This document shows, in pieces, positions 6,298 through 22,400 of a stretch of 22,400 nt of DNA (positions within the stretch are counted from its first letter, which is position 1; every line of letters begins with the position of its first letter). This DNA is from a virus. The notes beneath the pieces were generated by a model. It was not told where the DNA came from, made no database searches, and worked only from the letters and a program-made list of their open reading frames with translations. Both the position numbers and the translations under genes were made by a program. Location: the IMG/VR virus record IMGVR_UViG_3300036985_001640, positions 1-22,400 of that record; one strand, given 5' to 3'.

Positions 6298-6299
6298 AT

Positions 6300-6746: not shown

Positions 6747-8869
6747 GTGAAATCAGAACAGCAATTATGCAATTGGTAGAAAACAATCCTCAATTTCAAC
6801 AAGGTGTTGATCAAATGGAACAACAAGTACAGCGTATGCCGCTGGTTCCAGAAGAACTTGATGAAGCCATTAACCTGCTTGAGTTTGTTCTTCAAAACCC
6901 AGAACAATATCCAGAAGTGCGTGCCGCTGCAATCAAAGATGGCGCAATTGATGCCAACATGGTGCCAGAACAATACGACATGGTATTCGTTGTGTCACTG
7001 CTTGTTGCTTTATATGGATTGCAAGATCGTTTAAAAGTTCGGGGTTACGCGCGAGGCGGTTTAGCGGTAGCTGCTAGGCGACTTGAAATGCAAGGTCGCG
7101 GCGGTGACGACAGATTAGCTCACATTAATCATCGTGAAGCAGAAATGTTAAAACGTATGGGCGGTGAAGGGTCTATCAATCCGACAACCGGTTTACGCGA
7201 ATACAAAAGTGTTTTTAAATGGATCATGTCAATTTTGCCTGTTGCATTGATGGTTTTTGCTCCTGGCATTGGTACGGCATTAGGTGGTTTCCTTTCTGCC
7301 GGTATGTTGTCTGGTGCGGGTGCGGCTGCTTTAGGTGGCGGTGCTATTGGCGCATTGTCTGGTGGTATTACCGGCGGTTGGAAAGGGGCGTTGATGGGCG
7401 GCGCGGCAGGCGCACTAGGCGGTGGTCTTGGTGGACAAGTAGGAAGCTCGGCGAGTAGCGCACTTGGACTTGGACTTGGTAAAACGGGACAAGCTATGCT
7501 CGGTAGCGGTATCATCGGAGCGGGGGTCGGGGCTGCGGGTGCTGGAATGTCTGGCGGAAATGTACTTAAAGGTGCGTTAGTAGGTGGCGGAGTGGGTGCT
7601 GCTGGCGGTGCTATTGGCTCTATGGCAAGCGGCGTTGGTACGGATTCTGCAATCGGCTTAGGTATTAATCGTGGCGGGCAGGCGTTTGGTAATGCGTTGT
7701 CAGCGGGCTACAGTCCAAAACAAGCGGCTATTTCAGGTGGTTTAGCCGGTGTTGCCGCAGGTTTACAATTTGATCCAACGTCAGTTGGGCAACAAAAACT
7801 TAACGCGGTTAATGAAGGAAACAAAGATTATAGTTTGGACACGGGTAAACAACTCAATGTTTCTGACATTAGTATGAAACCTTCTGACAGTGTCGTTGAT
7901 AGTTTAAAACTCGGTAACGCAGGAACTGCCCCCGCAGGCGGCGGTCAATATGTAACGGATCCTGTTTCTGGTGCTGAAACATGGGTTCCGAATTCAGTAA
8001 CGGCAGCTCCATCTTATGATTTAGGATTAAAAGGCAACGCCTTTGGATCTACAGCTCCTAGTGGCGGTTATGGGTTGAATGCAGAAGGTGCGCCTACGTT
8101 TGGCGGTGATCAAACTAATTTAGCACCTTCAGTACAAAATGCATTAAGTCCCCAAAGTGTTTTCGGTCAAGGTACTTCAATCGGCAGTCCTCAAGCGGTT
8201 AACACCAACGCAGCTGCGGGGCAAGGTGTTAACGTTTTAGGTGGTCAAACAGGCGCAACGAATTACACAAGTGCTTTATCAGGACAAGCTGATGCCGGAA
8301 CAGTTCAACAACAGCAACAACAGCAACAAGGACAAGGCGGTTTTGACTGGGGTAAAGCAGCGTTGCTCGGCGGTGGTGCATTAGCTGTAGGGTCGATGTT
8401 GACAGCACCAAAAGAAGCGCAAGACGCTGTTTCACAATTATCTCCACAGCAACAAGAATATTTCACCAGACCCAGCGTTCAGTGGGATTGGGATAAAATG
8501 CAAAATGATGCGAATAGAAATAATCAAGGGTTGTATGATTACATGGCGCAGAATTGGAACAAAGTGTCGTCAGGCACTTACAATCAAGCCGGTTACGCTG
8601 CTGGCGGGGCATTAGGAAATATTGCACGATTTGCGCGTGGCGCAGGATCTGGTCGAGATGATACAATTGACGCAAAATTATCTGATGGTGAGTATGTCAT
8701 AGACGCTGAAACTGTCGCGTTACTGGGTGATGGATCAAACAACGCAGGCGCAAAAATGCTCGACAAGATGCGCAGTGAAATTCGCGCTCAAAAAGGTAAA
8801 ATGTTAGCCAAAGGTAAAATTAGCCCAAACGCTAAATCCCCACTCTCATATTTAAGAGGAGCAATGTAA
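6743..8869 (+). CDS. Large internal virion / ejection-like protein with glycine-zipper membrane region
   Basis: A 708-residue protein. Residues ~1-100 are helical and acidic. Residues ~103-153 hold a Gly/Arg-rich motif region (YARGGLAVAARRLEMQGRGG, then RMGGEGSINPTTGLREYKS). A hydrophobic segment at ~157-180 (VFKWIMSILPVALMVFAPGIG) leads into a long Gly/Ala-rich zipper region to about residue 300, of the kind that can enter membranes. The middle is low complexity with a run of eight Gln (8306-8329). Near the C-terminus is the signature GRDDTIDAKLSDGEYVIDA, then ETVALLGDGSN, recurrent in phage internal or tail-tip proteins. It overlaps its neighbours as ATGA and TAATG, and AGAGGA precedes the ATG. 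A role in DNA ejection across the envelope is inferred. Confidence 0.65.
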   Translation: MSEIRTAIMQLVENNPQFQQGVDQMEQQVQRMPLVPEELDEAINLLEFVLQNPEQYPEVRAAAIKDGAIDANMVPEQYDMVFVVSLLVALYGLQDRLKVRGYARGGLAVAARRLEMQGRGGDDRLAHINHREAEMLKRMGGEGSINPTTGLREYKSVFKWIMSILPVALMVFAPGIGTALGGFLSAGMLSGAGAAALGGGAIGALSGGITGGWKGALMGGAAGALGGGLGGQVGSSASSALGLGLGKTGQAMLGSGIIGAGVGAAGAGMSGGNVLKGALVGGGVGAAGGAIGSMASGVGTDSAIGLGINRGGQAFGNALSAGYSPKQAAISGGLAGVAAGLQFDPTSVGQQKLNAVNEGNKDYSLDTGKQLNVSDISMKPSDSVVDSLKLGNAGTAPAGGGQYVTDPVSGAETWVPNSVTAAPSYDLGLKGNAFGSTAPSGGYGLNAEGAPTFGGDQTNLAPSVQNALSPQSVFGQGTSIGSPQAVNTNAAAGQGVNVLGGQTGATNYTSALSGQADAGTVQQQQQQQQGQGGFDWGKAALLGGGALAVGSMLTAPKEAQDAVSQLSPQQQEYFTRPSVQWDWDKMQNDANRNNQGLYDYMAQNWNKVSSGTYNQAGYAAGGALGNIARFARGAGSGRDDTIDAKLSDGEYVIDAETVALLGDGSNNAGAKMLDKMRSEIRAQKGKMLAKGKISPNAKSPLSYLRGAM

Positions 8870-10599
8870 TGGCGACATCAGACGACCCCTTTGCATCAAG
8901 CACTAGTCTGCTTAAAGATTTAACCACAGGAACTCCGAACGATACGAAATCATTTCAACTTGTTAAGTCGGGTGAAACACCCGTATGGATGCAGGAGGCT
9001 ATTTACAATCAAACGCAACTGGCTAAGAATTTTGCGCAAACACCTTATCAACCTTACGAGTTTGAATCGCTCGCACGTTTAACTCCCGCGCAGAAACAAG
9101 CCTACGGAAATATTTCAAGCAATGTTGCTAATGCGGAAACAGGGCAAGTCGCATCGTGGCAACCTGACATTTGGAATACGCAAACTAGTATGTTTGATCA
9201 GACGACCAACCAAACTGGTCAAACCCTGCAAACAGATCAAGGCGCGTATTTACGAGGTGATTTAGCTGACAAAAATTTAGATGCTGGGCAAGCTACATGG
9301 GACACGGCTGGCGGTCTTAGTCCTCTGGCTGCTGCACAAACAGCTTTAAACAAAGGTTTAAACTTGAGTGCTTCCGGAGCCGCTAGTCAATATTTAAGTA
9401 ACGCTGCGGGTGTTGATATTGGCAATGCAGGTCAAAGCAGATTTAATCAAGCGGCTAACACTAACATTACCGGCGCAGCAAATCCTTATTTTGACGCAGC
9501 TAACCAAAATTTAGTTACGTCCACGCAAGAACGGGCGTTAGCGGCTGCTGATCCTTACATGAAAGCGGCGTCAGCTTCAGGCGCGTCTGGCGTTAATGCC
9601 TACATGAACCCGTATCAAACAAGCGTCATGGATGCTATGGCACAGCAATCTGCGCGTAATTTGAAAGAAAACATTCTTCCTGGAGTGTCTGACGCATTTA
9701 TTAAAGCCGGTAACTTCGGTAGTGCACGGATGGGTGAATTTGGTAACCGCGCTGTTCGGGATGCTAATCAAACTTTGCAACAACAACAAGCGCAATTACT
9801 TAATCAAGGTTACGGTCAAGCGGTCACCGCTGCGCAATCTGATTTAAATCGTCAAGCTCAGTTGGCTAATGTCGCGGGTAGCACTGCTGGCGCAGATCTT
9901 AGTCGTATTACGCAAAACGCAGGCGCGTATAACCAACAAGGTCAAATAGCCGCAAACGCCGCTGCTAGCCAAGGTCAGCTTTATCAAAGCATCGGGCAAA
10001 GTCAAATTGATGCGGCAGCAAAGCAAGCGTCTATGTACGGGCAACTCGGTCAGACTACGGGAACACTTACTGCACAAGACATGCAAAATTATGCGAACAT
10101 TGGTCAGACACAAGGACAGTTAACAAATGCTCAGCAACAAAATTTAATTAACCTTGGACAACAACAAACTTTGGCGGGTCAACAGCAACAGACATTTGGT
10201 CTTAACGCTGCGGGGAATGTGCAACAAGCCACAGCGCAAGATTATGCTCGTCAGATAGGTGCACTTAACACTTACGCCAATTTGGTCGGTGGTGAACAAC
10301 AAATGTTAGCAGCTGACAACGCAGCACTCGAAGCGGCTGGCGCAGCACAGCAAAAAGATCTGCAAGCTAGCTATGATGTAGCAAAACAACAATACTATGC
10401 ACCATTAGAGTATGCTAGAAGCAATATAGATTTCTTGAATACACAAATTAAAGGTTTGCAACCGATTACGCCAATGAGCAACACGACTTTTGGGTCGGGT
10501 ACAGGTCAAACGTACTCACCGTCTCCGTTAGCAAACACGGCTGCAGCTTATAACATATATAAAGGTGTCACAACTCCAACAACCGGCACAACAGGATAA
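8869..10599 (+). CDS. Large helical Gln/Asn/Ala-rich virion protein
   Basis: A 576-residue protein. After a short N-terminal segment (PVWMQEAIYNQTQLAKNFAQ, PYQPYEFESLARLTPAQKQA) the rest is a long series of Ala/Gln/Asn-rich helices with repeated phrases such as GQTQGQL, NLGQQQTLAGQQQ and QASMYGQLGQT. Near residue 240 is a recognisable stretch MNPYQTSVMDAMAQQSARN followed by GSARMGEFGNRAVRDANQTL, a motif shared by structural proteins of related short-tailed phages. The composition suits an extended coiled internal protein ejected with DNA or lining the tail. No enzyme motif was seen. The start overlaps the previous stop as TAATG, with AGAGGAG about 10 bases upstream. Confidence 0.6.
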   Translation: MATSDDPFASSTSLLKDLTTGTPNDTKSFQLVKSGETPVWMQEAIYNQTQLAKNFAQTPYQPYEFESLARLTPAQKQAYGNISSNVANAETGQVASWQPDIWNTQTSMFDQTTNQTGQTLQTDQGAYLRGDLADKNLDAGQATWDTAGGLSPLAAAQTALNKGLNLSASGAASQYLSNAAGVDIGNAGQSRFNQAANTNITGAANPYFDAANQNLVTSTQERALAAADPYMKAASASGASGVNAYMNPYQTSVMDAMAQQSARNLKENILPGVSDAFIKAGNFGSARMGEFGNRAVRDANQTLQQQQAQLLNQGYGQAVTAAQSDLNRQAQLANVAGSTAGADLSRITQNAGAYNQQGQIAANAAASQGQLYQSIGQSQIDAAAKQASMYGQLGQTTGTLTAQDMQNYANIGQTQGQLTNAQQQNLINLGQQQTLAGQQQQTFGLNAAGNVQQATAQDYARQIGALNTYANLVGGEQQMLAADNAALEAAGAAQQKDLQASYDVAKQQYYAPLEYARSNIDFLNTQIKGLQPITPMSNTTFGSGTGQTYSPSPLANTAAAYNIYKGVTTPTTGTTG

Positions 10600-10603
10600 G
10601 AAA

Positions 10604-12874
10604 ATGGGATACGAATTAGATCAACTCATGAAAAGAAATGGCGTGTCTACAGCAGGACTGCCCCAGTATTCTGGTGCAAAAGCACCTTCAGAAACGATTA
10701 TACCTGTTAACACAAAGACTACTAATAAATACTACACTGCCCCTATCGAGCCTACTGCGCCTGTTATGCCTACTGCGCCAACAGCTTTTGATGGCACGAC
10801 TCCTATTGCGCCTGCAAAACCAGGGAAAGGCGCAACCGCAGAGCAAACAGCAGAATACAAAGTGTCTAACGCGCAGCACCTTGCAGATTTAAACACGTTT
10901 AACGCCGATAAAGCCGCAAGCATAAAAGCAACCACAGATTATAATACGGCATTGACAGCTTATCCAAAGTCGATGACCACTTACAATACGAATTTGACTA
11001 AGTTCAATACTGACAAAACGACGTGGGATGAGCTTCAGCGTAAATACGACTTAGATCAAAAATCGTACAACACTTATGTTGATGAGTATAAAAACAGAAT
11101 TGCTAACACACCGCAGTATGACCCGTTACCAAAAGCACCCGGACAGACACGTCCAAACACGTCTATGGGTCAAAGAACGTTACCTGAAACGCTTTCAGAT
11201 CCTGGAATTTCACAGACGTCTTCTGATATTTCAGAGTGGGCGTCACAAAATCCGTATGCAACAACGCAAGATGTTCAGAAATATCAAGATGACTATGGTT
11301 TAACCGGTCGTGATCTGTACAATGCGACAGGTAGCTTCTACGGTAATCAGTTGAAGCCTCCCGCGTACGGAGAATTGTCAAAGAATTTCAACAATCTAAC
11401 ACCACAGCAACAAGCCTCAAATTACGCGCAACAACTCAATACAGGCTACACGGATGCTGACATAAGAAGTAAGTTTGCAAAACAGTTTGGATCACCAATG
11501 GATGCGAACTGGACTGCTATGCAAGATTTAGCGTCTCCACCTGTATTAGCCGAAGGTGGCTCCGTACATGACCTTTATAGAAAATACGCTAACGGCGGAC
11601 ACGTAGCGCATTACGCAGATGCCGGTAGTGTTGATATTGCAAACAGTGTTATGCCTAGACCAGAAGAAGGCGTTCCGCAACCTTTACCACAAATCCAAAT
11701 GCAAGCTGCTGCGCCTCAGCAAGATGACCGAATGGCGCAATTGCAAGCTATGATGGAAAAATACGCTACTCCGCAAAATGATTATGCGCGGGAGCTTGAA
11801 GAAGCGCGTAGAAAATCTAACGCTGAAACTGAAGCGTTTACTGACATGGTTAAAAATGCGCGTAAATCTCCAGAGCGCGATAACATGAGTCAGGCAGAGC
11901 GTTATTTCAGATTAGCGGCGGCTTTCGGTCAACCCACCAAAACAGGTTCACTAGGTGAAACGTTAGGAAACGTCAGTCAAGCCATGGCTGAAAATGAAAA
12001 ATCTAAAAAAGACAGTCAAGATCAAAATTTAGAACTTCAGATGAAAGCGCAGCAATTAAAAACTGCGGGGGCAAAAGAAGATTTAAACACGTTACGGGTT
12101 TTGTCGTCTGAAGATAAAAAGACGCAACGTGAAATAGTTTCTAGCATGATCAAAGCAGAAATTGAAAGCGGTAAACCGCAATCAGAACTTGCTAAAATTG
12201 CTAAAGATCGTTACGGGTATGGAACGCAAGGTTATTACTCATTTTTAGAGAAAAACGTACCGACATGGGTAGAAAGTAAAATGGCTCAGATGCAAATGGG
12301 ACCCATGATAGCGCAAGGTAACTTATCAGTAGCGCAAGGTAACTTACAAGAAAATCAAGAGAGAACCAACATTTCGCAAGAAGAACATGTACAAAAACTA
12401 GCGGAAATGAAAGAAAAACAATCTCAAATGTCACAGCAAGAACTGAAAATGAAAACAGATTTGCAAAATGAGATGTTACGTCTTGAAAGTGCATCTGACA
12501 CGTTAAACAGAGCTTACCAGTTAAATTCTAACTCTTTTGACAATACGGTAACTGACAGAGCAAAACGGATGGCTATTGAAAACACCGTAGGTTCTAAAGA
12601 TGAAAAAGTTAAAAACACTAGGGAGCTTGAAACGTTCCTCGGTGAATCATCATTAAATTTAGCGCAGGATTTGAAAGGTTCTGTTTCTGATTCTGATATG
12701 AAATTGCTGTCATCATTGACAGGTGCAAAAACCATGGGAGTTCAAGAACGTGCAGACATATTGCACAAAAACTGGACTAATTTACAAAGAAATCTTGAAC
12801 TCAAAAAGAAACAATACAATGACGTCATCAGCAAACGAGCAAGACTTTATGACGAAAGAGCATCGGAGCAATAA
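10604..12874 (+). CDS. Large coiled-coil virion protein, putative internal/ejection protein
   Basis: A 756-residue protein from ATG 10604 (MGYELDQLMKRNGV), chosen because AGGATAAG lies just upstream; an in-frame ATG at 10565 would overlap the previous gene. N-terminal region: Pro/Thr/Ala-rich with repeated PTAP-like phrases (residues ~40-70), then helices. Around residues 320-350 is LAEGGSVHDLYRKYANGG, a Gly-rich motif found in internal proteins of related phages. The C-terminal half is long charged coiled coil (EEARRKSNAETEAFTDMV, ELKMKTDLQNEMLRLES). A short in-frame repeat (AQGNL twice) sits at 12310-12346. It is part of a run of four large structural genes after the gp10-like gene. Function is inferred from company and composition. 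Confidence 0.6.
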   Translation: MGYELDQLMKRNGVSTAGLPQYSGAKAPSETIIPVNTKTTNKYYTAPIEPTAPVMPTAPTAFDGTTPIAPAKPGKGATAEQTAEYKVSNAQHLADLNTFNADKAASIKATTDYNTALTAYPKSMTTYNTNLTKFNTDKTTWDELQRKYDLDQKSYNTYVDEYKNRIANTPQYDPLPKAPGQTRPNTSMGQRTLPETLSDPGISQTSSDISEWASQNPYATTQDVQKYQDDYGLTGRDLYNATGSFYGNQLKPPAYGELSKNFNNLTPQQQASNYAQQLNTGYTDADIRSKFAKQFGSPMDANWTAMQDLASPPVLAEGGSVHDLYRKYANGGHVAHYADAGSVDIANSVMPRPEEGVPQPLPQIQMQAAAPQQDDRMAQLQAMMEKYATPQNDYARELEEARRKSNAETEAFTDMVKNARKSPERDNMSQAERYFRLAAAFGQPTKTGSLGETLGNVSQAMAENEKSKKDSQDQNLELQMKAQQLKTAGAKEDLNTLRVLSSEDKKTQREIVSSMIKAEIESGKPQSELAKIAKDRYGYGTQGYYSFLEKNVPTWVESKMAQMQMGPMIAQGNLSVAQGNLQENQERTNISQEEHVQKLAEMKEKQSQMSQQELKMKTDLQNEMLRLESASDTLNRAYQLNSNSFDNTVTDRAKRMAIENTVGSKDEKVKNTRELETFLGESSLNLAQDLKGSVSDSDMKLLSSLTGAKTMGVQERADILHKNWTNLQRNLELKKKQYNDVISKRARLYDERASEQ
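12310..12346 (+). repeat. Short in-frame direct repeat
   Basis: The 16-base sequence AGCGCAAGGTAACTTA occurs at 12310-12325 and again at 12331-12346, 21 bases (seven codons) apart, encoding AQGNLSVAQGNL in the coiled-coil protein. It is a small duplication without an evident regulatory role. Confidence 0.9.
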
Positions 12875-12876
12875 TC

Positions 12877-14874
12877 ATGGCAACATTTTCAGAATTAAAC
12901 AACGGTGAACGAGTAAATCCATTTTCTAACTCAGCACGAGCATTGATCGGGCAGGGTGTGGGTATGGGCTGGGGTGATGAGGGTGAAGCGTGGCTCCGTT
13001 CTAAACTATCTAATGAAGATTATGACACCACATTAGCTGACATCAATAAAAAATATTCAAAATATAAAGAAGAATATCCAGTATCTTCAACAGCTTTAGA
13101 ATTCGGAGGAGCTGCTATTCCTGCAGTAGGGTCTTTACTGCTCGGACCGGAAACCGGAGGAGCTGCCCCCGTGGGTGTTTTAAAAACGATTATGAACAGT
13201 CCGTACGCTAAAAACGCGATGTTGACAGGACCAGTAGGTGGCGCGGTGCAAGGCGCAGGTATGGCTGCTCCTGAAGACAGAGGTCTTGGTATGGCGGAAG
13301 GTGCTGTTTTAGGTGGCGTGACGGGCGCGGCGATGCCTTTAATAACGCGTGGAGGAAAAGGCGCTGTTGACTGGTTACGTGACAGACTTGCTCCTAGTGA
13401 CGCGTTAATCGCGGAACGAGCTGCGGGTAAAGTATCTGAAGCTGTGAAAGAAGATGAGTTAACACCACGCGACGTAAATCGAACAGTGATGTACGATTAC
13501 GCACGCGGTATTCCTTCAACGATAGCTAACGTATCACCGTCTTTGGTTCATCTTGCTGACACTGTAGCGCAGCGTAGCGGTCCTAGCGGACGGTTGGTTG
13601 AAGAAGTGCTGGGCGAACAGAAAGCCGGTGCGCGTGAGCGTGTTTACCAACGAGCGCAAAATGAGATTTCGAGCGGAAATTATTATGATGACATTAAAAA
13701 ATTGTCTAGCGAGTTGAAAGCAAAAGCGCAGCCTCTTTACGACAAAGCATATGACCATGGGATTGTAGAAGATCCGGAAGTGTTAAAACATTTAAAATTA
13801 CCTCAATTTCAAAAAGCGATAGGCGCAGCAAGAGAATTGCTTGAAGCCGACGGTAGAAGTTTACCTACTGAAGATGTGTTTGATGCCGCAGGTGCTAAAA
13901 TTGGCGAAAAAATAACACCAGACGTTGAAACATTAGATCATTTAAAACGAGGTTTAGATCGTTTAATTGAAGGACAGACTGATGCAACAACGGGTAAAGT
14001 CACGGCACTTGGCGGCGTTTACATCAAAAAGAAAAATGAATTTTTAAACGCATTAGATGAAGCAGTTCCAGACTACAAAGAAGCTAGACGCGTTTATGCG
14101 GGTGATATAGAAGTTATTAACGCGATGGAATCTGGTTACAAAGATTTTTCAAAGTTAGACCATGAAGAAGTGCAACATCTAGTCGGAAAGATGAGCTCGG
14201 CTGAGAAAGAAGCATTTAAAACGGGGGTGGTTAGACATATACATAGCCTCACTATGGATCCAACTAATAATATGAACGCGGCAGCCAAAGTTATTCAGTC
14301 ACCAGAAACTCAAAAAAGTTTAAGTGTTCTGTTTGACAGTCCTGCTCATTTTGATTTGTTTAAATCAGCACTTCTACGTGAATCTCAACTGTACAACCAA
14401 GCTAATCAGATCTTGGGTGGTGCTCAAACAGGTCGCAGAATACAAGCGCGTGAACGTTTTGAGCAAGGACCGGCGTTAGATGCAGTTATTACTGAAGCAG
14501 TTTCTGGATTTCATCCCTTTGACGCGTTAGGAAAGCTAGTTACTCGTGTTGGAAATAGAGCGTTCATGTCAGACAAAGTGGCGCACAAAGTATCTGAACT
14601 TTTAATGTCAAAAGACCCGCATGAAGTGGCAGCCGCTGTTAAAACATTAGAAAGTTATGAGGCAAAAGCTAAAACAGGTGCGCATGTTTCTGAGCAGGTA
14701 GAAAGCGGTTTGACGATGGGTAGTTCTAATTTATTGCAAACACGCCAGGACATCAATAAAGACAAAGAAATAAATTACGACATCAGCAAACACGAACGTA
14801 TGTTAAAAGGACCGAGTATTTCTGAGCATCAATACACTAACATTCCTGGTAGTAAAATGGGAGCAACTGAATAG
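12877..14874 (+). CDS. Large internal virion protein, last gene of the structural operon
   Basis: A 665-residue protein. The N-terminal signature NPFSNSARALIGQGVGMGWG then DEGEAWLRSKL, followed by DYDTTLADINKKYSKYKEEY, is common in phage internal virion proteins at this operon position. Residues ~65-165 are Gly/Ala-rich and hydrophobic (ALEFGGAAIPAVGSLLLG, GPVGGAVQGAGMA, GAVLGGVTGAAMPL) and could insert into a membrane. The remaining ~480 residues are soluble, charged helices (ERAAGKVSEAVKEDEL, DAVPDYKEARRVYAGDIEV), with no catalytic motif I can name. The ATG at 12877 is two bases after the previous stop and follows GGAG. An intrinsic terminator lies 30 bases after its stop. A role in DNA ejection is likely but inferred. 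Confidence 0.65.
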   Translation: MATFSELNNGERVNPFSNSARALIGQGVGMGWGDEGEAWLRSKLSNEDYDTTLADINKKYSKYKEEYPVSSTALEFGGAAIPAVGSLLLGPETGGAAPVGVLKTIMNSPYAKNAMLTGPVGGAVQGAGMAAPEDRGLGMAEGAVLGGVTGAAMPLITRGGKGAVDWLRDRLAPSDALIAERAAGKVSEAVKEDELTPRDVNRTVMYDYARGIPSTIANVSPSLVHLADTVAQRSGPSGRLVEEVLGEQKAGARERVYQRAQNEISSGNYYDDIKKLSSELKAKAQPLYDKAYDHGIVEDPEVLKHLKLPQFQKAIGAARELLEADGRSLPTEDVFDAAGAKIGEKITPDVETLDHLKRGLDRLIEGQTDATTGKVTALGGVYIKKKNEFLNALDEAVPDYKEARRVYAGDIEVINAMESGYKDFSKLDHEEVQHLVGKMSSAEKEAFKTGVVRHIHSLTMDPTNNMNAAAKVIQSPETQKSLSVLFDSPAHFDLFKSALLRESQLYNQANQILGGAQTGRRIQARERFEQGPALDAVITEAVSGFHPFDALGKLVTRVGNRAFMSDKVAHKVSELLMSKDPHEVAAAVKTLESYEAKAKTGAHVSEQVESGLTMGSSNLLQTRQDINKDKEINYDISKHERMLKGPSISEHQYTNIPGSKMGATE

Positions 14875-14933: not shown

Positions 14934-15170
14934 TCAATGTTCAACATCTTCAATCAACTGTTGAATTATACGTTCTTCATCTTTAGCTGTCATTTTTCTC
15001 TCAAGCCAGTTCGCTAGATATCCTTTACGATCGTAGATTTTAAACTCTACGTCAAACCAACCGCCATAGTAGTCTGCGTCACTATCCCAGGTGTTATAAT
15101 CTGGTTTCTCATAATACCCGCTAGTCATTTCTGCTTTACAAGGTATACCGTTTATATGCGTGTCAATCAT
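14934..15170 (-). CDS. Small conserved phage protein of unknown function
   Basis: Seventy-eight residues from the ATG at 15170 (MIDTHINGIPCKAEM). I prefer this start because it overlaps the upstream stop as ATGA with AGG six bases before it; an upstream ATG at 15194 would overlap that gene by 28 bases. It is rich in aromatic and acidic residues (SGYYEKPDYNTWDSDADYYG), then WFDVEFKIYDRKGYLANWLE and a C-terminal charged helix (TAKDEERIIQQLIEDVEH). Similar small proteins with a 'DRKGY-WLERKM' end occur in phage replication regions, but their function is unknown to me. It is the last gene of the minus-strand operon. Confidence 0.7.
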   Translation of the reverse strand: MIDTHINGIPCKAEMTSGYYEKPDYNTWDSDADYYGGWFDVEFKIYDRKGYLANWLERKMTAKDEERIIQQLIEDVEH

Positions 15171-15643
15171 TTGTACCTCGTCTCGTAAAGCCATCTCGCC
15201 ATGAGGAGCGCTTCGGCTCTATCACTGTGTTTTTTAAGATTAATAGGAGCTTCAGGAAACATACGAACAGCTAATGATCGGCTCTGTTCTTTGTCGCTCG
15301 TAAGTTTAAAATATTTTTTCCAAGTCACCGGAGCAACGTAAACAGTTTCAAAACGACACGCGGCTATAGAAGACCTAGCGCATCCGAAACTATCTCCCAA
15401 ACTAAAAACAGAAGAAGAACCTTGTCCTGGCATCGCATTCACGCGCTCTAAAACCACGCACGTAAACTCAGTAACGTCTGCATATTCTCTCAACATTTTA
15501 ATGAGTCCCGCAGGATCTACTTCGTTTTTAACAACGCCTGTACCTTTCACAACGGTAGGCATGTCTAAAACTGTGACAAATACGCCGTTATTGAGCACGC
15601 CGATAGCACCGGTGAGTCCTGGGTCAATTCCTATGGTTATCAT
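15167..15643 (-). CDS. RuvC-like Holliday junction resolvase
   Basis: A 158-residue RNase H-fold endonuclease of the RuvC type, which cuts four-way junctions and branched DNA before packaging. The acidic residues expected for metal binding are in place: D7 in GIDPGLTGAIG, E66 in VVLERVNAMPGQG, and D141 (with H139 and E144) in KKHSDRAEALLMA. The segment after E66 (GQGSSSVFSLGDSFG) is also characteristic of phage RuvC-like proteins. It starts as an ATGA overlap with the nuclease gene upstream and ends as an ATGA overlap with the next small gene, so it lies within the replication-recombination operon. Length is close to RuvC (~170 residues). Confidence 0.9.
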   Translation of the reverse strand: MITIGIDPGLTGAIGVLNNGVFVTVLDMPTVVKGTGVVKNEVDPAGLIKMLREYADVTEFTCVVLERVNAMPGQGSSSVFSLGDSFGCARSSIAACRFETVYVAPVTWKKYFKLTSDKEQSRSLAVRMFPEAPINLKKHSDRAEALLMARWLYETRYK

Positions 15644-16479
15644 AACGCCTCGTAATGCTCACACCCTGTGAGCTGTTTATCAATAGGTAGAGTTTCGCTA
15701 TCAAGTTCGCAAACCCACGTACCGTCTGTGTAAGGAATACATTGCCGGCATGTACGACAGTTTTTAAGCGGTTCTACATTTTTAACACACACTTCTTTCA
15801 TATCACAAAATTTACATCCAAAACTAGTACCGTCGTCACTGATACCGGCGGGTCTGAGCCTAGCAGCGACTAATTTATCTACTTTTTTAAATAGTTTCTC
15901 CTGCTCAATTTCGTCACGTTCTATAATCTCAACGTACAATTTCTCGTCATCTTTACACACCGCGAGGTAAAGTGCTCTGTCAAAATTAGCTAAATTCATA
16001 CTAATTTGCACTTGAGCATAATGTAGAGGTTTTTCAGATTTTACACCTTTCTTTACGACTGAGTCAAAGTTCTTTTTATTGTGAGTTTTTATCTCAAGCA
16101 ACATCGCGTCGTCGTACCCGTTAATACCTTTGATTATACCGTCAATTTTAGTTACGAAATGTTTACTACTGTCAGCATATTCAAATTGTTTACCGGTGTG
16201 TTCATTCTTGTTCCAAACGTGATAGCCGGCGCGTCTCAAATCTTCAACTACTCTATCTTCCTGCCAATGCCCTGTTCCGAACAACCTAAGTATTCTACCG
16301 TCGAAATCTTTCCTGTTAAACCCTCGCCAGTCTAACCATATATTACGTAGGCATTCTTCACCGACAAACGATGATCCAAGTCTACCGAGGTAAATGTCAG
16401 GCTTTCTATCTTCTAGCTCGTAACCGGCGTAAATTCGATTGGCGATATCTAGTTCTGGTTTTACTGGTATAGCTACCAT
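15640..16479 (-). CDS. PD-(D/E)XK nuclease, Cas4/AddB-like with Fe-S-type cysteines and an extra Cys-rich tail
   Basis: A 279-residue nuclease of the RecB/Cas4 superfamily, expected to act as an exonuclease in recombination or DNA end processing. Motifs: G-H71-W-x-E in FGTGHWQEDRVVEDL, D113 in TKIDGIIKG, E129-x-K131 in LLEIKTHNKK, and Q156 in HYAQVQISMNL. Cysteines C43 and C222-x2-C225-x5-C231 match the 4Fe-4S pattern of Cas4 and AddB. A further cluster, C241-x2-C244-x2-C247, C257 and C273, makes an unusual C-terminal Cys-rich tail that could bind zinc. ATG 16479 follows TTAGGAG; an ATG five bases upstream is out of frame and stops at once. It lies downstream of the terminator-like hairpin after the SSB gene. 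Confidence 0.88.
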   Translation of the reverse strand: MVAIPVKPELDIANRIYAGYELEDRKPDIYLGRLGSSFVGEECLRNIWLDWRGFNRKDFDGRILRLFGTGHWQEDRVVEDLRRAGYHVWNKNEHTGKQFEYADSSKHFVTKIDGIIKGINGYDDAMLLEIKTHNKKNFDSVVKKGVKSEKPLHYAQVQISMNLANFDRALYLAVCKDDEKLYVEIIERDEIEQEKLFKKVDKLVAARLRPAGISDDGTSFGCKFCDMKEVCVKNVEPLKNCRTCRQCIPYTDGTWVCELDSETLPIDKQLTGCEHYEAL

Positions 16480-16486
16480 GTCATGT

Positions 16487-16498
16487 CTCCTAAGTTAT
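16487..16498 (-). promoter_or_regulatory. Ribosome-binding leader shared by two genes (copy at nuclease gene)
   Basis: The 12-base sequence ATAACTTAGGAG lies 7 bases before the nuclease ATG at 16479. The identical 12 bases lie before the SSB ATG (17018-17029). AGGAG is a strong Shine-Dalgarno and decides the start among the nearby ATGs. It starts just after the terminator U tract. Confidence 0.8.
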
Positions 16499-16523
16499 AA
16501 AAAGAGAGGGTGACACCCTCTCT
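16498..16523 (-). terminator. Intra-operon intrinsic terminator after the ssDNA-binding protein gene
   Basis: On the minus strand, an 8-bp stem AGAGAGGG / CCCTCTCT with a TGTCA loop (16503-16523) is followed by TTTTT. It lies 12 bases after the SSB stop and just before the nuclease ribosome site. It probably limits transcription into the nuclease, RuvC and small-protein genes relative to the SSB gene. Confidence 0.82.
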
Positions 16524-16535
16524 CTCGAAACAGGT

Positions 16536-17009
16536 TTAATCCCAAGGATTACCTGTTTTTGCGGCTGGAGCCGGCGTTGCTGGTTTTGGCGCGGGTTTCG
16601 CTGTTGATTCAAACAAAAACGCATTGATACGATTACTAGCAGCGTAACCGTTATTACCTTTCTCAATAGTAACGTCTGCTCTGAACGGTTTTTCAACTAA
16701 TTTGTCAGTGTCATCTGCGTCAGGTTTACCACAAGCAGCAGACCACGCTACGATTTGTTGACGACCGATACGTTGCGCTGCTTCACTAGGATTATTAACG
16801 TTGAAATTTTGCCAGATCAACCTACTTGCAAATTCACCTTTAATAACTTCAAATTTAACTTTAATGTATGAACCGTCACCTTTACTAGTGGTTTTCTCTT
16901 CGGCTTCTACAGCTTTCAAAAAATACTCTCCGGCAGGGATTGGCTCAAATGAACCTTGTGCGCCGGTGTCTGGTGTTACTTCTGTTACGTCGAATCCAAA
17001 TTTAGCCAT
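16536..17009 (-). CDS. DUF669-type single-stranded DNA-binding protein
   Basis: A 157-residue protein (MAKFGFDV start). Proteins of this family bind ssDNA and work with Sak/Sak4 or Erf-type recombinases in phages. The family pattern FEPIPAGEYFLKAVEAEEKT, followed by YIKVKFEVIKGEFASRLIWQ and a FNVNNPSEAAQRIGRQQIVA segment, is clear. The C-terminus is a Pro/Ala linker ending in NPWD, an acidic/aromatic tip as in other SSBs that recruit partners. I chose ATG 17009 because AGGAG precedes it at the right distance; the in-frame ATG at 17054 would overlap the ATPase gene. A terminator follows, suggesting higher expression of this gene than of those downstream. Confidence 0.88.
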   Translation of the reverse strand: MAKFGFDVTEVTPDTGAQGSFEPIPAGEYFLKAVEAEEKTTSKGDGSYIKVKFEVIKGEFASRLIWQNFNVNNPSEAAQRIGRQQIVAWSAACGKPDADDTDKLVEKPFRADVTIEKGNNGYAASNRINAFLFESTAKPAPKPATPAPAAKTGNPWD

Positions 17010-17017
17010 GATGTTTA

Positions 17018-17029
17018 CTCCTAAGTTAT
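17018..17029 (-). promoter_or_regulatory. Ribosome-binding leader shared by two genes (copy at SSB gene)
   Basis: ATAACTTAGGAG here is identical to the leader of the nuclease gene (16487-16498). Its TAA is also the stop codon of the ATPase gene, so the leader is part of the gene junction. The Shine-Dalgarno AGGAG lies 8 bases before ATG 17009. Confidence 0.8.
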
Positions 17030-17766
17030 TTAATGATTGGTAATAGTTTTTCAAGATTTTCGATAGTCATCTCAATATCTTCAGGACATGAATATCTATT
17101 TTTTGCAGCAAACGCAGGATTTTCTACAAAGTGAAGTAATCGTTCACCAGTAGTAACACCACGTGATTTCTGAGCATTAAAACCTGCGTCAGATTTACGT
17201 ATAATCACTTTAAATGCAGCAAACGCAAGCACGTCTGCCCATTCTTGTAACAAAGCGTTACAGCGATTAGGTAACTTGGGTTGATAACGGTCGTACGGTT
17301 CAGTACGAGGGTCTTCAAATTTAACCACCGCAGCGTGAGCAATCAAAACGACGTTCATACGGCGTTTCGTACGCAACAGGTCTAAACCTTGCAGGATCTC
17401 GCGTAACTCTTCGGCAACGAACATCTGACTTTTGCCGAAAGCGAGATCTTTCGCATCATGACTGGCTTCAACACTACGTATGATTAACGGTTCTACTAAC
17501 CAGTCTACTGAGTCAATAACCACCGTTTTGTAATCATGATCTTCTTTTAACAATGTTTTTATACTCTCAACGACGTCTTCTATCGCATTGGCATGGGGAA
17601 AACTAGTCACATCAAGTGAGTCTAACCCGTCTTCTGTGCTTATGAAAATAGGGTTCGGAAATTTACTAGCTAATGTAGATTTACCGATACCGTGACCTCC
17701 GTAAATACAAATACGCGGGGGTACGTCTTGTTTGCCCGTTCTGAGCGTTTCTTTCCAATTTGACAT
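17026..17766 (-). CDS. RecA-fold ATPase, Sak4-like (AAA_24) recombinase
   Basis: A 246-residue P-loop ATPase. Walker A is GGHGIGKST (residues 23-31), Walker B TVVIDSVDWL (D85), and a further conserved LIAHAAV segment near residue 150 fits the RecA/Sak4 class. Sak4-like proteins are compact RecA relatives that promote single-strand annealing with a phage SSB. The SSB gene follows immediately, which supports pairing of function. Start: GAGGAG upstream, 25 bases after the stop of the preceding gene. The C-terminus (CPEDIEMTIENLEKLLPIIK) is helical. An assignment as a RecA-like ssDNA-annealing ATPase is more secure than the exact subgroup. Confidence 0.85.
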   Translation of the reverse strand: MSNWKETLRTGKQDVPPRICIYGGHGIGKSTLASKFPNPIFISTEDGLDSLDVTSFPHANAIEDVVESIKTLLKEDHDYKTVVIDSVDWLVEPLIIRSVEASHDAKDLAFGKSQMFVAEELREILQGLDLLRTKRRMNVVLIAHAAVVKFEDPRTEPYDRYQPKLPNRCNALLQEWADVLAFAAFKVIIRKSDAGFNAQKSRGVTTGERLLHFVENPAFAAKNRYSCPEDIEMTIENLEKLLPIIK

Positions 17767-17791
17767 GTTTGTTCTCCTCTAATTGAAGCGG

Positions 17792-18145
17792 TTAGTCGTC
17801 CGCATTGTCATCACTAAAATTACCACTGTTAAACATTTCCCAATGCTGAAGCACATATTGAAACGAATTGCGATCCCAACTCAACACATTGACCGTGTCA
17901 TCTAACTCAGTTACAATTGACATACAAACTCCACACAGCGTTGGGTCTCCTATCATCAACAAATAATCTCCATCTCTCCAATTTCTCAACACTCTACGAG
18001 CTTTAGAAATCATATTAGAAGTGTGGTACGGTTTCTTCGGGTTTCCGAAAACGGCTTTAAGTGTTCCGTATCTTTTAGCGTCTGATAGATCTTTGCTGTT
18101 ATCAACTTGAACTACGAACACTGTTTTCTGGTTTTTATCAGTCAT
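17792..18145 (-). CDS. Hypothetical phage protein between polymerase and Sak4-like ATPase
   Basis: A 117-residue protein that I do not recognise. The sequence begins MTDKNQKTVFVVQVDNSKDL, has a basic middle (ISKARRVLRNWRDGDYLLMI), a GDPTLCGVCMSIVTE segment and an acidic tail (NFSDDNADD). Such an order (beta strand, basic helix, beta strand, acidic tail) could suit a small nucleotide-binding or regulatory protein, but nothing specific is visible. It overlaps the polymerase stop by 8 bases and is followed by the ATPase 25 bases later, so it is in the replication operon and may assist replication or recombination. Confidence 0.6.
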   Translation of the reverse strand: MTDKNQKTVFVVQVDNSKDLSDAKRYGTLKAVFGNPKKPYHTSNMISKARRVLRNWRDGDYLLMIGDPTLCGVCMSIVTELDDTVNVLSWDRNSFQYVLQHWEMFNSGNFSDDNADD

Positions 18146-19976
18146 TTTTACGTTTCCTAGTTTTCTTAGGGGGAGGGGCTATTAATTGTAATTGCTCTGC
18201 TGTTAAATAATCTGAGCACCCAACAGCCACCGCTATTTTTATTGCTTCTTTAATATACCATTCATAATCTAAATCCTCGGGGTGTTTGATTTTATCAAGT
18301 AACGTCATACACGCTTTTGCACCTTCTGTTTTAGGCACTTTATTACCGTTAGACGCGTATTTTATCGGTTCGTTAGCCATATCTGTAGATTGATACCAAC
18401 GTACCACTTTACCCAGGTAAACGCCGTTTTGCTGTCCACCTCCGGTCACATTACGAGCACTGATAAAATCAGTGAACGGCGTGTTGTAAATAGTAGACTC
18501 AAAAGATGAACCGAAAGCCAACCATTGACCGACAGCACCTGCTGACACTTGAGCAGTTGGATTCTTTCTGAGCGATAAAGGCGCGTAAATACCTTTGACT
18601 TTCAAGTTTCTATTTTGTTTTATAGCTATGTAGTTATTAACATCTTTCATAGCTAAGGCGCGGTAGTAAGTGTACTCAAAGTTGAACTTAGAAACTTTAC
18701 TAAATTCATCTACTGTTTTTTCTATTAATGTCTTTTGATCTTCTTTGAAAAATATAGCGATACCATCAGTGTTAGCCGACAACGTTATAACGTCGTGAGT
18801 TTCTAACCATTCAATCAACATAAGCAGTGTGAATTGCCCTGTCAACGTCACCGCCAGCATCAGATCAGGAGAGTATAGCACTGAGTACCTGCTAGCTAAT
18901 TTACCGAACGTTCCGTTTAACGAAATTTTAAGAGTCGCGTCTGTCGTCTTATCTCCTGATTTTTTAGCTTCAAGACGTTGTTCATAAATTTTACGATATT
19001 CATCTACAAACCGTTTACCGAGAGCGACAGGTACGAACCCACATTCTAAAATAATACTAGGATAGAAAGACGCAGCGTCAATGTCACATATGTAATCTTC
19101 TCCCGCAATATGACATACTTTTTTATCGTGAACGCTATGAACTCCTCCAACTCCAAGTTGATAAGAACCAGTGCCGAAAGTTATAATTTCAGATCCTAAA
19201 AACTCAGGTAAACGCACATGACCTGTAGCTGCGTTCATCTCAAAAACATGACTTGCGGTTCTATTTAACAGCTGTTGAAGTTTAAAATTTCTAAATTTCA
19301 AAAACGAAGGCGGCGTGTACCGTATTGTTTCTGGTATTTGATTGTCAGCAAATTTTAAACCCATACTGGTGATATAAGCAGCCTCTGCCATCTGCGCATC
19401 TGATTTACTACGCATGTCTACTTTGTACCTACGGCTCATATCAACTCTGAGCAGCACTTCATTTTCAAGTTGACTGAGTAATTCTTCAGTGGTGTCGACG
19501 TCATTGTGACAATATTCTAATATGTCAATTTCTTGATCTTCAGTTATCATGTCAGTATGCGCTATCGGCATGTCCTGCAACTTGGGCATATGCATTCTTG
19601 CGCCATACGCTTTTAAACCTACGAATGAGGGAGCAACTTCAATCAAATCTATATGATCCCCCATGACGTCAATTAAATCAAATTTACGCAGCGCTTCCCA
19701 GTGTCTCAGCCGATTAGTAATAACATCATCGGCTATGCGTTTTATTTCAATTTCAGATCTACCCGCGCAAAACGCAGCCACTATAACATTGTCAAATGAT
19801 CGGCTGTTAAAACCCACTAATGTCTCAACAGCCGGAGAGGTTATAAATGATCTCAACCTTTCAGGAGCGCCGTTTTCGTGACGCCACAGGTCAAACCAGT
19901 CGCCTGTCTCAATGTTTTTAGCGCAAAACAGAGTACGATTGGGTAACGTCTCTGTGTCAAACACCCACGTGCTCAT
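18138..19976 (-). CDS. Compact family B DNA polymerase with 3'-5' exonuclease
   Basis: A 612-residue replicative polymerase. Exo motifs: D7-x-E9 in VFDTETLP, N57-x4-D62 in GFNSRSFDN, and Y155-x3-D159 in EYCHNDVD. Polymerase motifs: A at D300-x2-S-F-Y-P-S (IDAASFYPS), B at K350-x3-N354-G-T-F-G358, and C at N402-T-D404 (SANTDGI), where the usual DTD has N first. Motifs A-B and B-C are only ~45 residues apart, so the TPR1/TPR2 insertions of protein-primed phi29-type polymerases are absent. ATG 19976 overlaps the DUF3310 stop as ATGA and begins MSTWVFDTE; a start at 20000 would run into DUF3310. No helicase or primase is in the window. Confidence 0.92.
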   Translation of the reverse strand: MSTWVFDTETLPNRTLFCAKNIETGDWFDLWRHENGAPERLRSFITSPAVETLVGFNSRSFDNVIVAAFCAGRSEIEIKRIADDVITNRLRHWEALRKFDLIDVMGDHIDLIEVAPSFVGLKAYGARMHMPKLQDMPIAHTDMITEDQEIDILEYCHNDVDTTEELLSQLENEVLLRVDMSRRYKVDMRSKSDAQMAEAAYITSMGLKFADNQIPETIRYTPPSFLKFRNFKLQQLLNRTASHVFEMNAATGHVRLPEFLGSEIITFGTGSYQLGVGGVHSVHDKKVCHIAGEDYICDIDAASFYPSIILECGFVPVALGKRFVDEYRKIYEQRLEAKKSGDKTTDATLKISLNGTFGKLASRYSVLYSPDLMLAVTLTGQFTLLMLIEWLETHDVITLSANTDGIAIFFKEDQKTLIEKTVDEFSKVSKFNFEYTYYRALAMKDVNNYIAIKQNRNLKVKGIYAPLSLRKNPTAQVSAGAVGQWLAFGSSFESTIYNTPFTDFISARNVTGGGQQNGVYLGKVVRWYQSTDMANEPIKYASNGNKVPKTEGAKACMTLLDKIKHPEDLDYEWYIKEAIKIAVAVGCSDYLTAEQLQLIAPPPKKTRKRKND

Positions 19977-20236
19977 CGGTCTTGATCCACGTATCCGCAC
20001 ATTTCTACTAACTCTGCGCCGGCGTTACCCGTTTCTATTTCGATGAGTTTTTCAAGATAATGTATCGCTTTATTTAAATCTTGAACAACATTGTCTTTCA
20101 AGTAGCACCGTTCAATGTATTTTGTAGCAGCTGCTTGGAAATAGTTAAGACCTAAACGATTGACACGGTCCCAGTGCTCTTCCCCTCCACGTTTATAATG
20201 TGTACCGCCGATTTGTTTTTGATTAGAAACGCTCAT
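19973..20236 (-). CDS. DUF3310 (SaV-like) small phage protein
   Basis: Eighty-seven residues with the DUF3310 signature: QIGGTHYK near residue 8, then RLGLNYFQAAATKYIERC, then DLNKAIHYLEKLIE. These small helical proteins are common beside phage replication and nucleotide-metabolism genes; the function is not firmly established. The start is an ATGA overlap with the HD-domain gene and the stop an ATGA overlap with the polymerase, so the three are closely coupled. Confidence 0.85.
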   Translation of the reverse strand: MSVSNQKQIGGTHYKRGGEEHWDRVNRLGLNYFQAAATKYIERCYLKDNVVQDLNKAIHYLEKLIEIETGNAGAELVEMCGYVDQDR

Positions 20237-20721
20237 GCTCCGTACTCCTTAATTAAGTTAAAAATTTGCCGTTCTATACCGTTTAATGACATTTCTTCAG
20301 CATAGCTAATGTATCGGTCAAATACAGAGCGTATACGCTTATTACCTAACGAAAGTTCACGTGCGCAAAACAGAGCGCCTTGGGCTATATCAGACAATTT
20401 TAAAACACGTTTATCTTCTAATGACAACGTAGGCATGTGAATACCGACATGACTCATGAGGCGTTCTTCTAATTCGTCTACCTTACCACCGATGCCGAAC
20501 TCACGCTTAGCAGGGGAAGGTATATCACCGGTTTGGTGCTCTGCTAAGTCGTGACAAAGCGCTGCAAATAAAAGATCACGTCCCGCATCGGGTTTAAAAA
20601 TCAAGCACAGCATGGCTACGCCGTGTGAATGATGACCGACGGTTTCAGAAATTAGAGTGGTGACGGTATGGTAACGCTTTACCTCAGCGCCGGCAATGAT
20701 AAAATCTAATGTTTTTTGCAT
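20233..20721 (-). CDS. HD-domain phosphohydrolase, YfbR-like 5'-deoxynucleotidase
   Basis: A 162-residue HD-superfamily metal-dependent phosphohydrolase. Family signature: H18 in RYHTVTTL, then ETVGHHSHGVAML, H57-D58 in ALCHDLAEH, TGDIPSPAKRE, and D110 in LKLSDIAQG. The YfbR family removes phosphate from deoxynucleoside monophosphates. Here it lies between a dUMP-modifying enzyme and the polymerase. One possibility is that it lowers competing dTMP or dNMP pools, as SPO1-type phages with hydroxymethyluracil DNA do with dedicated enzymes; the substrate is inferred, not seen. ATG 20721 follows GGAG. Start and stop overlaps (ATGA) join it to DUF3310, and a promoter-like sequence lies just upstream. 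Confidence 0.82.
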   Translation of the reverse strand: MQKTLDFIIAGAEVKRYHTVTTLISETVGHHSHGVAMLCLIFKPDAGRDLLFAALCHDLAEHQTGDIPSPAKREFGIGGKVDELEERLMSHVGIHMPTLSLEDKRVLKLSDIAQGALFCARELSLGNKRIRSVFDRYISYAEEMSLNGIERQIFNLIKEYGA

Positions 20722-20781: not shown

Positions 20782-21834
20782 TTATTTTTTATCATAAATC
20801 GAACTCAAAATAGAGTTTACTTTATTCAGTTCAACCTTATCTTCCAGCATGCGCTGTTTTTTATCTCTACGAGTTATCCACTCAAAAGCAGCTCTCCTCC
20901 AGTCATCTGCTTGTATTTTTGCCGCGTAATATTTACCGTCCCCCTCGCCTGTTTTTCTCATTTTACTCACCATAGCTAACGGATGAGCAACTTGGCCGAA
21001 AAACGGGTTCGCATACCGAACACGTTCGTTAAACGGGTCTTGACAAAACAGTTCACACTCAATTAAAAACAGGTTGTATTCACTATTTAACATTATCGGT
21101 TTCGGTCTCACCGCACCGTTAAGATAATAATCATATTCTTTTGGATTCGGCGGTACAGATAGATAATTACCGATATCGTAAAGCTCAGTATAGAGGTGCA
21201 GATTGTTAGACATTTGACGATAAACGCCGACATATAAATTCAAAGCAGCCGCTACAAGTTCTTGGAGAAAACTGAAATGCACGGCGTTCGCGCCGTAAGC
21301 ACCCCACCAGATATCATTACTCCGATTGAACACCGTCATATTCAACCTGTTATTATGTACATCAAAAACGATCTGCGTATTACACGCCTTGTCTTTAGTC
21401 TTTTTGTGTAAATCTTCCGAGTCCCACATTTGAATAACAGCTTGTCGGCTGTTAGGTTCACGGCGTAACAACTTGATAACTTCGTCAAGCTGATCATGAC
21501 CAAAATGTTTGCGCCATCGGTGACCATAAGCGGCGTTGAAGGTTTTACCGTCGTCACTAAACTCAACCATTCTTTTATTAAACTGCTGCAAGAATGCAAC
21601 ATCGTTGCGCCCCGCCAGCATCCATATTGACTCCATCAAGTGGAAGATAGGATTGGCGTCTCTTTTATTATCAAATAGAACACGCTCACACGGATACCTG
21701 TACGTCGTCAACACGGTCTCAGGGAATACTAACGCAGGACCGTTGCGGGTTTCTTCTGGTTTTAAATTAAGCGTCTTAAGTTGCCAAAATATCTCACTGA
21801 ATGCGTGGTTAACATTACGAACGTTAATTTCCAT
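20782..21834 (-). CDS. Thymidylate synthase-fold enzyme, probable dUMP hydroxymethyltransferase
   Basis: A 350-residue enzyme of the ThyA fold. Conserved points: E68 in LMESIWML, YGHRW at ~103-107, NSR130, catalytic C151 in KACNTQ, R171 in NRSND, N183 in YGANAVHF and H213-x-Y215 in NLHLYTELY. N183 aligns with the Asn of ThyA that selects dUMP over dCMP (Asp in dCMP hydroxymethylases), so uridylate is the likely substrate. The PCH of ThyA reads ACN, and the Trp near residue 80 of ThyA is not evident. Together with the IWWGAYGAN segment and the modification-type gene upstream, this suggests 5-hydroxymethyl-dUMP rather than dTMP as product. Ordinary thymidylate synthase remains possible. ATG 21834 follows GGAG. 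The C-terminal ~120 residues are unlike ThyA. Confidence 0.82.
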   Translation of the reverse strand: MEINVRNVNHAFSEIFWQLKTLNLKPEETRNGPALVFPETVLTTYRYPCERVLFDNKRDANPIFHLMESIWMLAGRNDVAFLQQFNKRMVEFSDDGKTFNAAYGHRWRKHFGHDQLDEVIKLLRREPNSRQAVIQMWDSEDLHKKTKDKACNTQIVFDVHNNRLNMTVFNRSNDIWWGAYGANAVHFSFLQELVAAALNLYVGVYRQMSNNLHLYTELYDIGNYLSVPPNPKEYDYYLNGAVRPKPIMLNSEYNLFLIECELFCQDPFNERVRYANPFFGQVAHPLAMVSKMRKTGEGDGKYYAAKIQADDWRRAAFEWITRRDKKQRMLEDKVELNKVNSILSSIYDKK

Positions 21835-21836
21835 AA

Positions 21837-22400
21837 TTAAAACTCCGTTTCTGGTTTATAATGCGTTTTAGGTTTACCTTCTGACAACACAGTCCTGCAG
21901 TATTTACTATACTCACACATGCAGTTTTGAACATCATGTAACGTCATGTCATCTATTTCTAAATGATCAAGTATCAACTTGAAAATCTGCCGCAATTTGA
22001 GATTAAACTCTTCTTGAGTCCAACCGGCGTTCGGTGCTCGGTTAAACAGGTAATTCAATCCCCGTGAACTTCCTGGTCCGATAGGCGCGTATTCAAACAG
22101 ATCGCTAGCGAAACATAAATGTTTTGTTGAATACGTCAAATCGGCAGCCACTTGACCGGCTATAAACGTACTTATACCGAAACACCTGCTCATAACGTTG
22201 ACAAACCGTTCAATCGTAACGTCATCTTGCAGTGTTTTCTGTATATCATCAGCTTTCAAAACAACGTCACCGATAATGTATTTTGCCACTGCTTTTGATT
22301 TGTTACCACCTGGATCCATTTTAGTAGGGTAAAGCATGTATGCTCCAGAGTAAACTTTACCACGAGTTTCTTTTAAAAACTCTAAGACTGCTTCAAAAAG
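21837..22400 (-). CDS. 5-hmdU DNA kinase / aGPT-PPlase family helical-domain protein (5' end outside window)
   Basis: The frame is open from the stop at 21837 to the window edge, beyond the first internal ATG at 22337, so the start lies outside. The visible part has the helical-domain signatures of the 5-hydroxymethyldeoxyuridine DNA kinase / alpha-glutamyl-putrescinyl thymine pyrophosphorylase families: YSGAYMLYPT near the edge, FIAGQVAADL, then IGPGSSRGLNYLFNR, and the C-terminal HDVQNCMCEYSKYCR. These families act on hydroxymethyluracil in hypermodified phage DNA. The adjacent thymidylate synthase-like gene (start two bases after this stop) fits that pathway. Which enzyme of the family it is, and whether a kinase domain precedes, cannot be told from the visible part. 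Confidence 0.8.
   Translation of the reverse strand, partial: LFEAVLEFLKETRGKVYSGAYMLYPTKMDPGGNKSKAVAKYIIGDVVLKADDIQKTLQDDVTIERFVNVMSRCFGISTFIAGQVAADLTYSTKHLCFASDLFEYAPIGPGSSRGLNYLFNRAPNAGWTQEEFNLKLRQIFKLILDHLEIDDMTLHDVQNCMCEYSKYCRTVLSEGKPKTHYKPETEF

Follow-up and report, generated by a model that had tools for sequence, protein, structure and literature searches.

A predicted thymidine-hypermodification operon of uncultured phages, with an M6-type core and a ViI-type transferase and PLP enzyme

Introduction

The right edge of a 22.4 kb virus contig raises the question of whether the phage from which it derives remodels the thymine of its DNA, or simply encodes a thymidylate synthase next to unrelated genes. 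The contig, IMG/VR record IMGVR_UViG_3300036985_001640, was analysed as the whole record (22,400 bases; hereafter the window), which stops inside a gene. A sequence-only reading had proposed a thymine-hypermodification cassette here, made up of a thymidylate synthase (TS)-fold enzyme with a dUMP-type Asn and, beside it, a gene carrying the GPGxxRGLN and CEYxKY signatures of a 5-hydroxymethyl-dU (5-hmdU) kinase-type helical domain, with further pathway genes expected beyond position 22,400. Two known base chemistries are relevant to its product, since the DNA of Salmonella phage ViI carries 5-(2-aminoethoxy)methyl-deoxyuridine (5-NeOmdU) and that of phage M6 carries 5-(2-aminoethyl)-deoxyuridine (5-NedU) (PMC6449724, PMC11721090).

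Results

The TS-fold protein and its neighbours in the window

The features at the right edge of the window are as follows.

18138..20000, minus strand: family-B DNA polymerase, context rather than modification enzyme (phrog_1252, 4.8e-158)
19973..20236, minus strand: DUF3310 protein of 87 aa, from the phage 'nucleotide kinase' family (PF11753, 1.2e-4, just under the cut-off)
20233..20721, minus strand: HD-domain nucleotide phosphohydrolase, YfbR-like 5'-deoxynucleotidase (PF12917, 1e-8; PF13023, 1.1e-6)
20782..21834, minus strand: predicted deoxyuridylate (dUMP) hydroxymethylase with a thymidylate-synthase fold, 350 aa (PF00303, phrog_5131, residues and tree)
21837..22400, minus strand: HMUDK_hel protein, C-terminal part, 187 codons not counting the stop, continuing on the overlapping contig L122 (PF18723)
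22274..22400, no strand: terminal overlap of 127 bp with L122

The product of 20782-21834 matched Thymidylat_synt (PF00303, 8.2e-24, above the curated cut-off) in Pfam and phrog_5131 (thymidylate synthase, 2.1e-103) in PHROGs. The open-ended frame at 21837-22400, separated from it by 2 bp, matched HMUDK_hel (PF18723, 1.8e-20, profile positions 106-278 of 281, also above the curated cut-off) and phrog_2396 (4.4e-20), and these E-values rule out chance for both right-edge family matches. Its protein contains GPGSSRGLN and CEYSKY, and the claim of a gene with the two signatures beside the TS gene was thus borne out by motif and profile alike.

The TS-fold protein was aligned with E. coli ThyA, T4 gp42 and the proteins of SPO1, ViI, W-14, Vibrio 207E48.1, LKO4, Pam3 and RHph_TM26; the E. 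coli row was checked by its 96% match to the Salmonella gene. The window protein retains the catalytic Cys146, together with Arg166, Asp169 and the dUMP-type Asn177 (E. coli ThyA numbering), the last being the Asn that had been read earlier, while at the Leu143 and His147 columns of ThyA it has Asp and Asn, respectively. Asp at the first of these columns was common to every hydroxymethylase in the alignment, and Asn at the second to all except T4 gp42, the dCMP enzyme, which has Thr. The residue pattern is that of the SPO1, ViI, W-14 and M6-type hydroxymethylases and not that of ThyA. Eighty metagenomic relatives were collected by means of the TS protein, and D-x-x-C-N plus GAN was present in 80/80 of them (62 by strict pattern and the other 18 from the listing). 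In the TS tree the window protein sat with its own metagenomic clade, apart from the three ThyA rows; the T4 gp42, SPO1, W-14 and Vibrio rows formed long branches, and their exact placement was not used. The protein is also about 42% identical to its M6/LKO4 counterpart across its whole length. By active-site residues and tree, it is a predicted dUMP hydroxymethylase and not a ThyA, so that the profile check proposed in the sequence-only reading, taken together with these two analyses, came out in favour of the cassette.

As in M6, LKO4 and Pam3, the HD gene adjoins the hydroxymethylase gene, and its product likely belongs to the module, acting in nucleotide-pool control. The DUF3310 protein, which also matched phrog_5839 (2.5e-20) and phrog_236 (nucleotide kinase, 7.9e-13), is encoded next to the cassette and is a candidate member of the module. 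The family-B polymerase would have to accept 5-hmdUTP; it lies with Sak4-like, SSB-like, Cas4-type exonuclease and RuvC-like genes at 15167-20000. The left two thirds of the window (1507-14874) carry an endolysin and virion/tail genes, among which three large ORFs (6743-8869, 8869-10599 and 10565-12874) had no PHROG match.

Probable continuation of the cassette on an overlapping contig

The helical-partner gene is truncated because the record ends at 22,400 bases. A search of the viral collection with a 32-base pattern from the window end returned one contig, IMGVR_UViG_3300036985_002811 (L122, 12.2 kb), whose first 127 bases are identical to the last 127 of the window (127/127). De Bruijn assemblers run with k = 127 leave overlaps of exactly this length between neighbouring contigs, and L122 is therefore most likely the direct continuation of the window. 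The GC contents of the two (0.43 and 0.42) and their tetranucleotide profiles (r 0.91) are in agreement, although the join depends on a perfect match of 127 bases between two contig termini and could be an assembly branch linking strain variants. Reading across the overlap gave a complete HMUDK_hel protein of 304 aa plus stop (PF18723, 3.9e-45). Beyond the start of this gene L122 carries, all on the same strand, a kinase gene, an amino acid:DNA transferase (ADDT) gene, a 70-aa ORF and a gene for a pyridoxal phosphate (PLP)-type protein.

L122 468-1052, minus strand: 5-hmdU DNA kinase (PF18748)
L122 1049-2050, minus strand: amino acid:DNA transferase, ADDT (PF18724)
L122 2258-3244, minus strand: fold-type-II PLP enzyme (fold model, match to the ViI PLP protein)

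The further pathway genes expected past position 22,400 were hence found, and annotation of the flanking genome, which had been suggested as a check, yielded a PF18748 kinase, a PF18724 transferase and a PLP enzyme. The assignment of the TS neighbour to a 5-hmdU kinase-type helical domain held as far as the HMUDK_hel family is concerned; the neighbour is, however, only the helical partner, and the P-loop kinase itself is encoded by the adjoining gene, which lies outside the window. The kinase scored 28.4 bits against PF18748 (cut-off 27) and has a Walker A P-loop, GTFGSGKTT, so that an HMUDK_hel protein adjoins a P-loop kinase, the arrangement of a 5-hmdU DNA kinase with its helical partner. 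Compared with L007, which comes from a relative of 54.7 kb, the cassette proteins show 81-93% identity. L122:3358-3768, adjacent to the PLP gene, encodes a 136-aa protein (MNELSFASMTTPQLIAFYN..KRFSDRKTAERR) that is present in L007 and L020 too; a family search with it gave no match, and by eye it resembles LKO4_008, which lies close to the M6-type cassette.

The transferase and the PLP enzyme

The ADDT matched PF18724 at 3.1e-20 (73.3 bits, cut-off 26.2), placing a transferase of this family in linkage with the cassette. It is 36% identical to a protein of Mycobacterium phage Magpie and 27% to the ViI transferase, and also matched Vibrio 207E48.1, while the M6, Pam3 and RHph_TM26 proteins were not matched. 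The tree divided accordingly, with the window clade, ViI, Vibrio 207E48.1 and Magpie split from M6, Pam3, RHph_TM26 and W-14 at a support of 100/100, a split to be read with caution given the long central branch. The structural model of the ADDT is all-helical (pLDDT 90.8), and its best PDB matches were 8z2m and 8z2n, the 5-phosphomethyl-dU (5-PmdU) glycinyltransferase of Pseudomonas phage PaMx11 (Foldseek probability 1.00/0.99, with weak E-values of 0.034/0.15). This fold match supports a predicted role in transferring an amino acid to 5-phosphomethyl-dU.

The PLP protein of L122 is 37% identical to that of Vibrio 207E48.1 and 34% to that of ViI (9e-61), with no significant match to M6. An NGSKxRQ lysine loop, PAGSCNS and FWIVGS are common to the L122 and ViI proteins; in place of these ViI-type motifs the M6 and Pam3 proteins carry SFSK/PFSK and SxSSGT. 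The model of the PLP enzyme (pLDDT 82.9) matched D-cysteine desulfhydrase and ACC deaminase (E down to 9.9e-12, probability 1.00, TM about 0.6), which makes it a fold-type-II PLP enzyme, and family-profile and fold searches agreed on the relation to D-cysteine desulfhydrase. A single-sequence search of the PDB returned designed-protein matches only.

Conservation in relatives

For each gene, counts were taken over those of the relatives whose contigs are long enough to reach it. These relatives show the gene order of the window and L122 (PLP, ADDT, kinase, helical partner, hydroxymethylase, HD nucleotidase), with three exceptions for the PLP gene. On the strand of the TS gene and around it were found the helical partner (70/70), the kinase (61/61), the ADDT (51/51) and the HD gene (58/58), and the PLP gene was adjacent to the cassette in 32 of 35, the exceptions being L038, L039 and L057. 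L038 and L039 have a PLP relative about 7 kb from the cassette on the other strand, and on the stretch of L057 that was examined no PLP gene was seen, which may represent a natural variant without the last step. Across the clade the ADDT and PLP reading frames are open, with mean column identities of 71-77%, and the kinase and PLP motifs are intact.

Because the window and L122 are fragments, additional tailoring enzymes were sought in the records of clade relatives, which may themselves be incomplete. A query with LKO4_0012, the M6-type radical-SAM protein, detected its positive controls LKO4 and Pam3 and nothing in six clade records (G001, G006, G011, G013, G016 and G017). The Pfam Radical_SAM profile, which detects the LKO4 protein at 1.5e-4, found nothing in 16 clade records, and the DAO profile, which finds the FAD enzyme of RHph_TM26, nothing in 14. 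The FAD-lyase type represented by the RHph_TM26 gene set was rejected on this last result.

The cassette carriers are uncultured phages of about 53-60 kb. An ADDT alignment run against 84,980 bacterial and archaeal genomes for a host or prophage link gave 27 pattern matches, none of them a relative. By the terminase of a relative, the nearest isolate is Roseobacter phage CRP-901 (46%), in which no cassette genes were detectable in the 50 of 53 kb checked; two structural proteins of the window also resemble CRP-901.

Discussion

Comparison with known systems

The same set of enzymes, namely a TS-fold hydroxymethylase, a 5-hmdU kinase, HMUDK_hel, an ADDT and a PLP enzyme, serves 5-(2-aminoethoxy)methyl-dU in ViI (Kuttervirus), which has the closest relatives of our ADDT and PLP proteins among the compared phages of known base chemistry. 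In ViI, however, these genes lie far apart across 150 kb (TS-kinase at 38 kb, hel at 88 kb, PLP at 141 kb and ADDT at 151 kb), whereas here they form one operon in a roughly 55-kb phage, with TS and hel proteins far from those of ViI. In the 5-(2-aminoethyl)-dU phages M6 and LKO4 (Yuavirus, Mesyanzhinovviridae) a compact cassette likewise lies just upstream of the polymerase gene, and its kinase-hel-TS-HD order and close homologues are shared with ours; in contrast, ViI-type genes here replace the M6-type ADDT and PLP genes, and no radical SAM was found. The polymerase beside the cassette also differs, being of family B, where those of LKO4 and Pam3 are annotated as DNA polymerase I. Pseudanabaena phage Pam3 and Rhizobium phage RHph_TM26 have their kinase, hel and TS genes arranged as here, Pam3 with an HD gene and RHph_TM26 with a DUF3310 gene, but their ADDTs are on the M6 side of the tree, and Pam3 has a radical SAM plus Nmad5 and RHph_TM26 a DAO-type FAD enzyme, unlike the present cassette.

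Among characterised phages, the closest are LKO4/M6 for TS, RHph_TM26/M6/Pam3 for hel, Pam3 and RHph_TM26 for the kinase, and Pam3/M6 for HD. By protein sequence comparison the cassette is a mosaic, in which the hydroxymethylase, hel, kinase and HD proteins are nearest to M6 and its relatives and the transferase and PLP enzyme are of ViI type. Lee et al. 2022 reportedly described viral metagenomes in which genes of this sort are permuted combinatorially, and the principle of gene mixing is therefore not new; what is new is that an M6-type core and a transferase and PLP enzyme of ViI type are encoded together in one operon, in an uncultured group.

Magpie (L086:1-3462) encodes as gp1-gp4 a ParB-like nuclease, a hypothetical protein, an ADDT-like gp3 and an 'adenylate kinase' gp4. 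Together these genes resemble a thymine-hypermodification cassette that has escaped annotation, its transferase being of the ViI side and 36% identical to the clade ADDT; no TS-fold gene was found in the Magpie genome.

Proposed pathway and alternatives

From the gene content and order, families, active-site residues and enzyme lineages observed here we infer the reactions, the amino acid and an anti-restriction role. The right end of the window would fall within the 3' half of an operon of six genes. Ahead of replication, 5-hydroxymethyl-dUMP would be produced by the TS-fold enzyme and dTMP probably depleted by the HD phosphohydrolase, so that the phage polymerase would incorporate 5-hydroxymethyl-dU. 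In the replicated DNA, the hydroxymethyl group would be phosphorylated by the P-loop kinase with its HMUDK_hel partner, and the helical ADDT would swap the phosphate for an amino acid. The fold-type-II PLP enzyme would then act on this amino acid; most likely it decarboxylates a serine linked through oxygen, leaving 5-NeOmdU as in ViI. The pathway steps draw in part on PMC6449724, PMC9476957 and PMC11721090. With a transferase and a PLP enzyme of ViI type and no radical-SAM or FAD tailoring enzyme in the clade records searched, the ViI product is the most likely one, rather than the 5-(2-aminoethyl)-deoxyuridine of M6. For a PLP enzyme to act without an isomerase, the amino acid on the base must have its alpha-amino group free, which would fit one linked through its side chain, such as the serine of ViI. 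The DNA of this phage very probably has part of its thymine replaced by a bulky base derived from an amino acid, a known means of evading restriction, and we regard a six-gene thymidine-hypermodification operon with a ViI-type product as the probable explanation of the whole.

The most probable of the alternatives, though we consider it unlikely, is an undescribed thymidine hypermodification, in which the ADDT uses another amino acid or the PLP enzyme carries out elimination or deamination. With only about 27% identity to the ViI ADDT, and 36% to an unstudied mycobacteriophage protein, the attached amino acid could differ, and the solved structures nearest in fold to the PLP protein, D-cysteine desulfhydrase and ACC deaminase, are not decarboxylases; against this, PLP and ADDT co-occur as in ViI, and the PLP protein has the catalytic-lysine loop of that phage's enzyme, along with other motifs. 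It is improbable that the same cassette makes the M6 base from a glycine joined through nitrogen, isomerised and then decarboxylated. The TS, hel, kinase and HD proteins are indeed closest to those of M6-type phages, which likewise have a PLP enzyme and an ADDT, but the radical-SAM enzyme that carries out the isomerisation in LKO4/M6 and Pam3 was absent from the clade records searched and the ADDT and PLP proteins belong to the other lineage, and on these grounds an M6-type product was rejected.

Some phages, such as SPO1, carry 5-hmdU alone, and a phage that stops at this base would have later genes that are decayed or act elsewhere; the open, well conserved ADDT and PLP frames and the intact motifs described above make this very improbable. 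Least credible of all is an ordinary thymidylate synthase supplying dTMP beside unrelated neighbours. Such an enzyme would be a PF00303 member with all the core catalytic residues, as this one is, but the hydroxymethylase-type Asp and Asn and the position outside ThyA in the tree led us to reject it, and all relatives with long enough contigs have the gene linked to kinase, hel and ADDT.

Significance

If the six-gene reading with a ViI-type product is true, the thymidine chemistry of ViI is found beyond the large Ackermannviridae myophages, in uncultured phages of roughly 55 kb. The operon is contiguous and small enough for cloning and expression, and with its hydroxymethylase, kinase and hel of M6 lineage it offers a natural experiment on whether the side chain is determined by the ADDT/PLP lineage alone. 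These viruses, if the reading is true, should withstand many host restriction enzymes.
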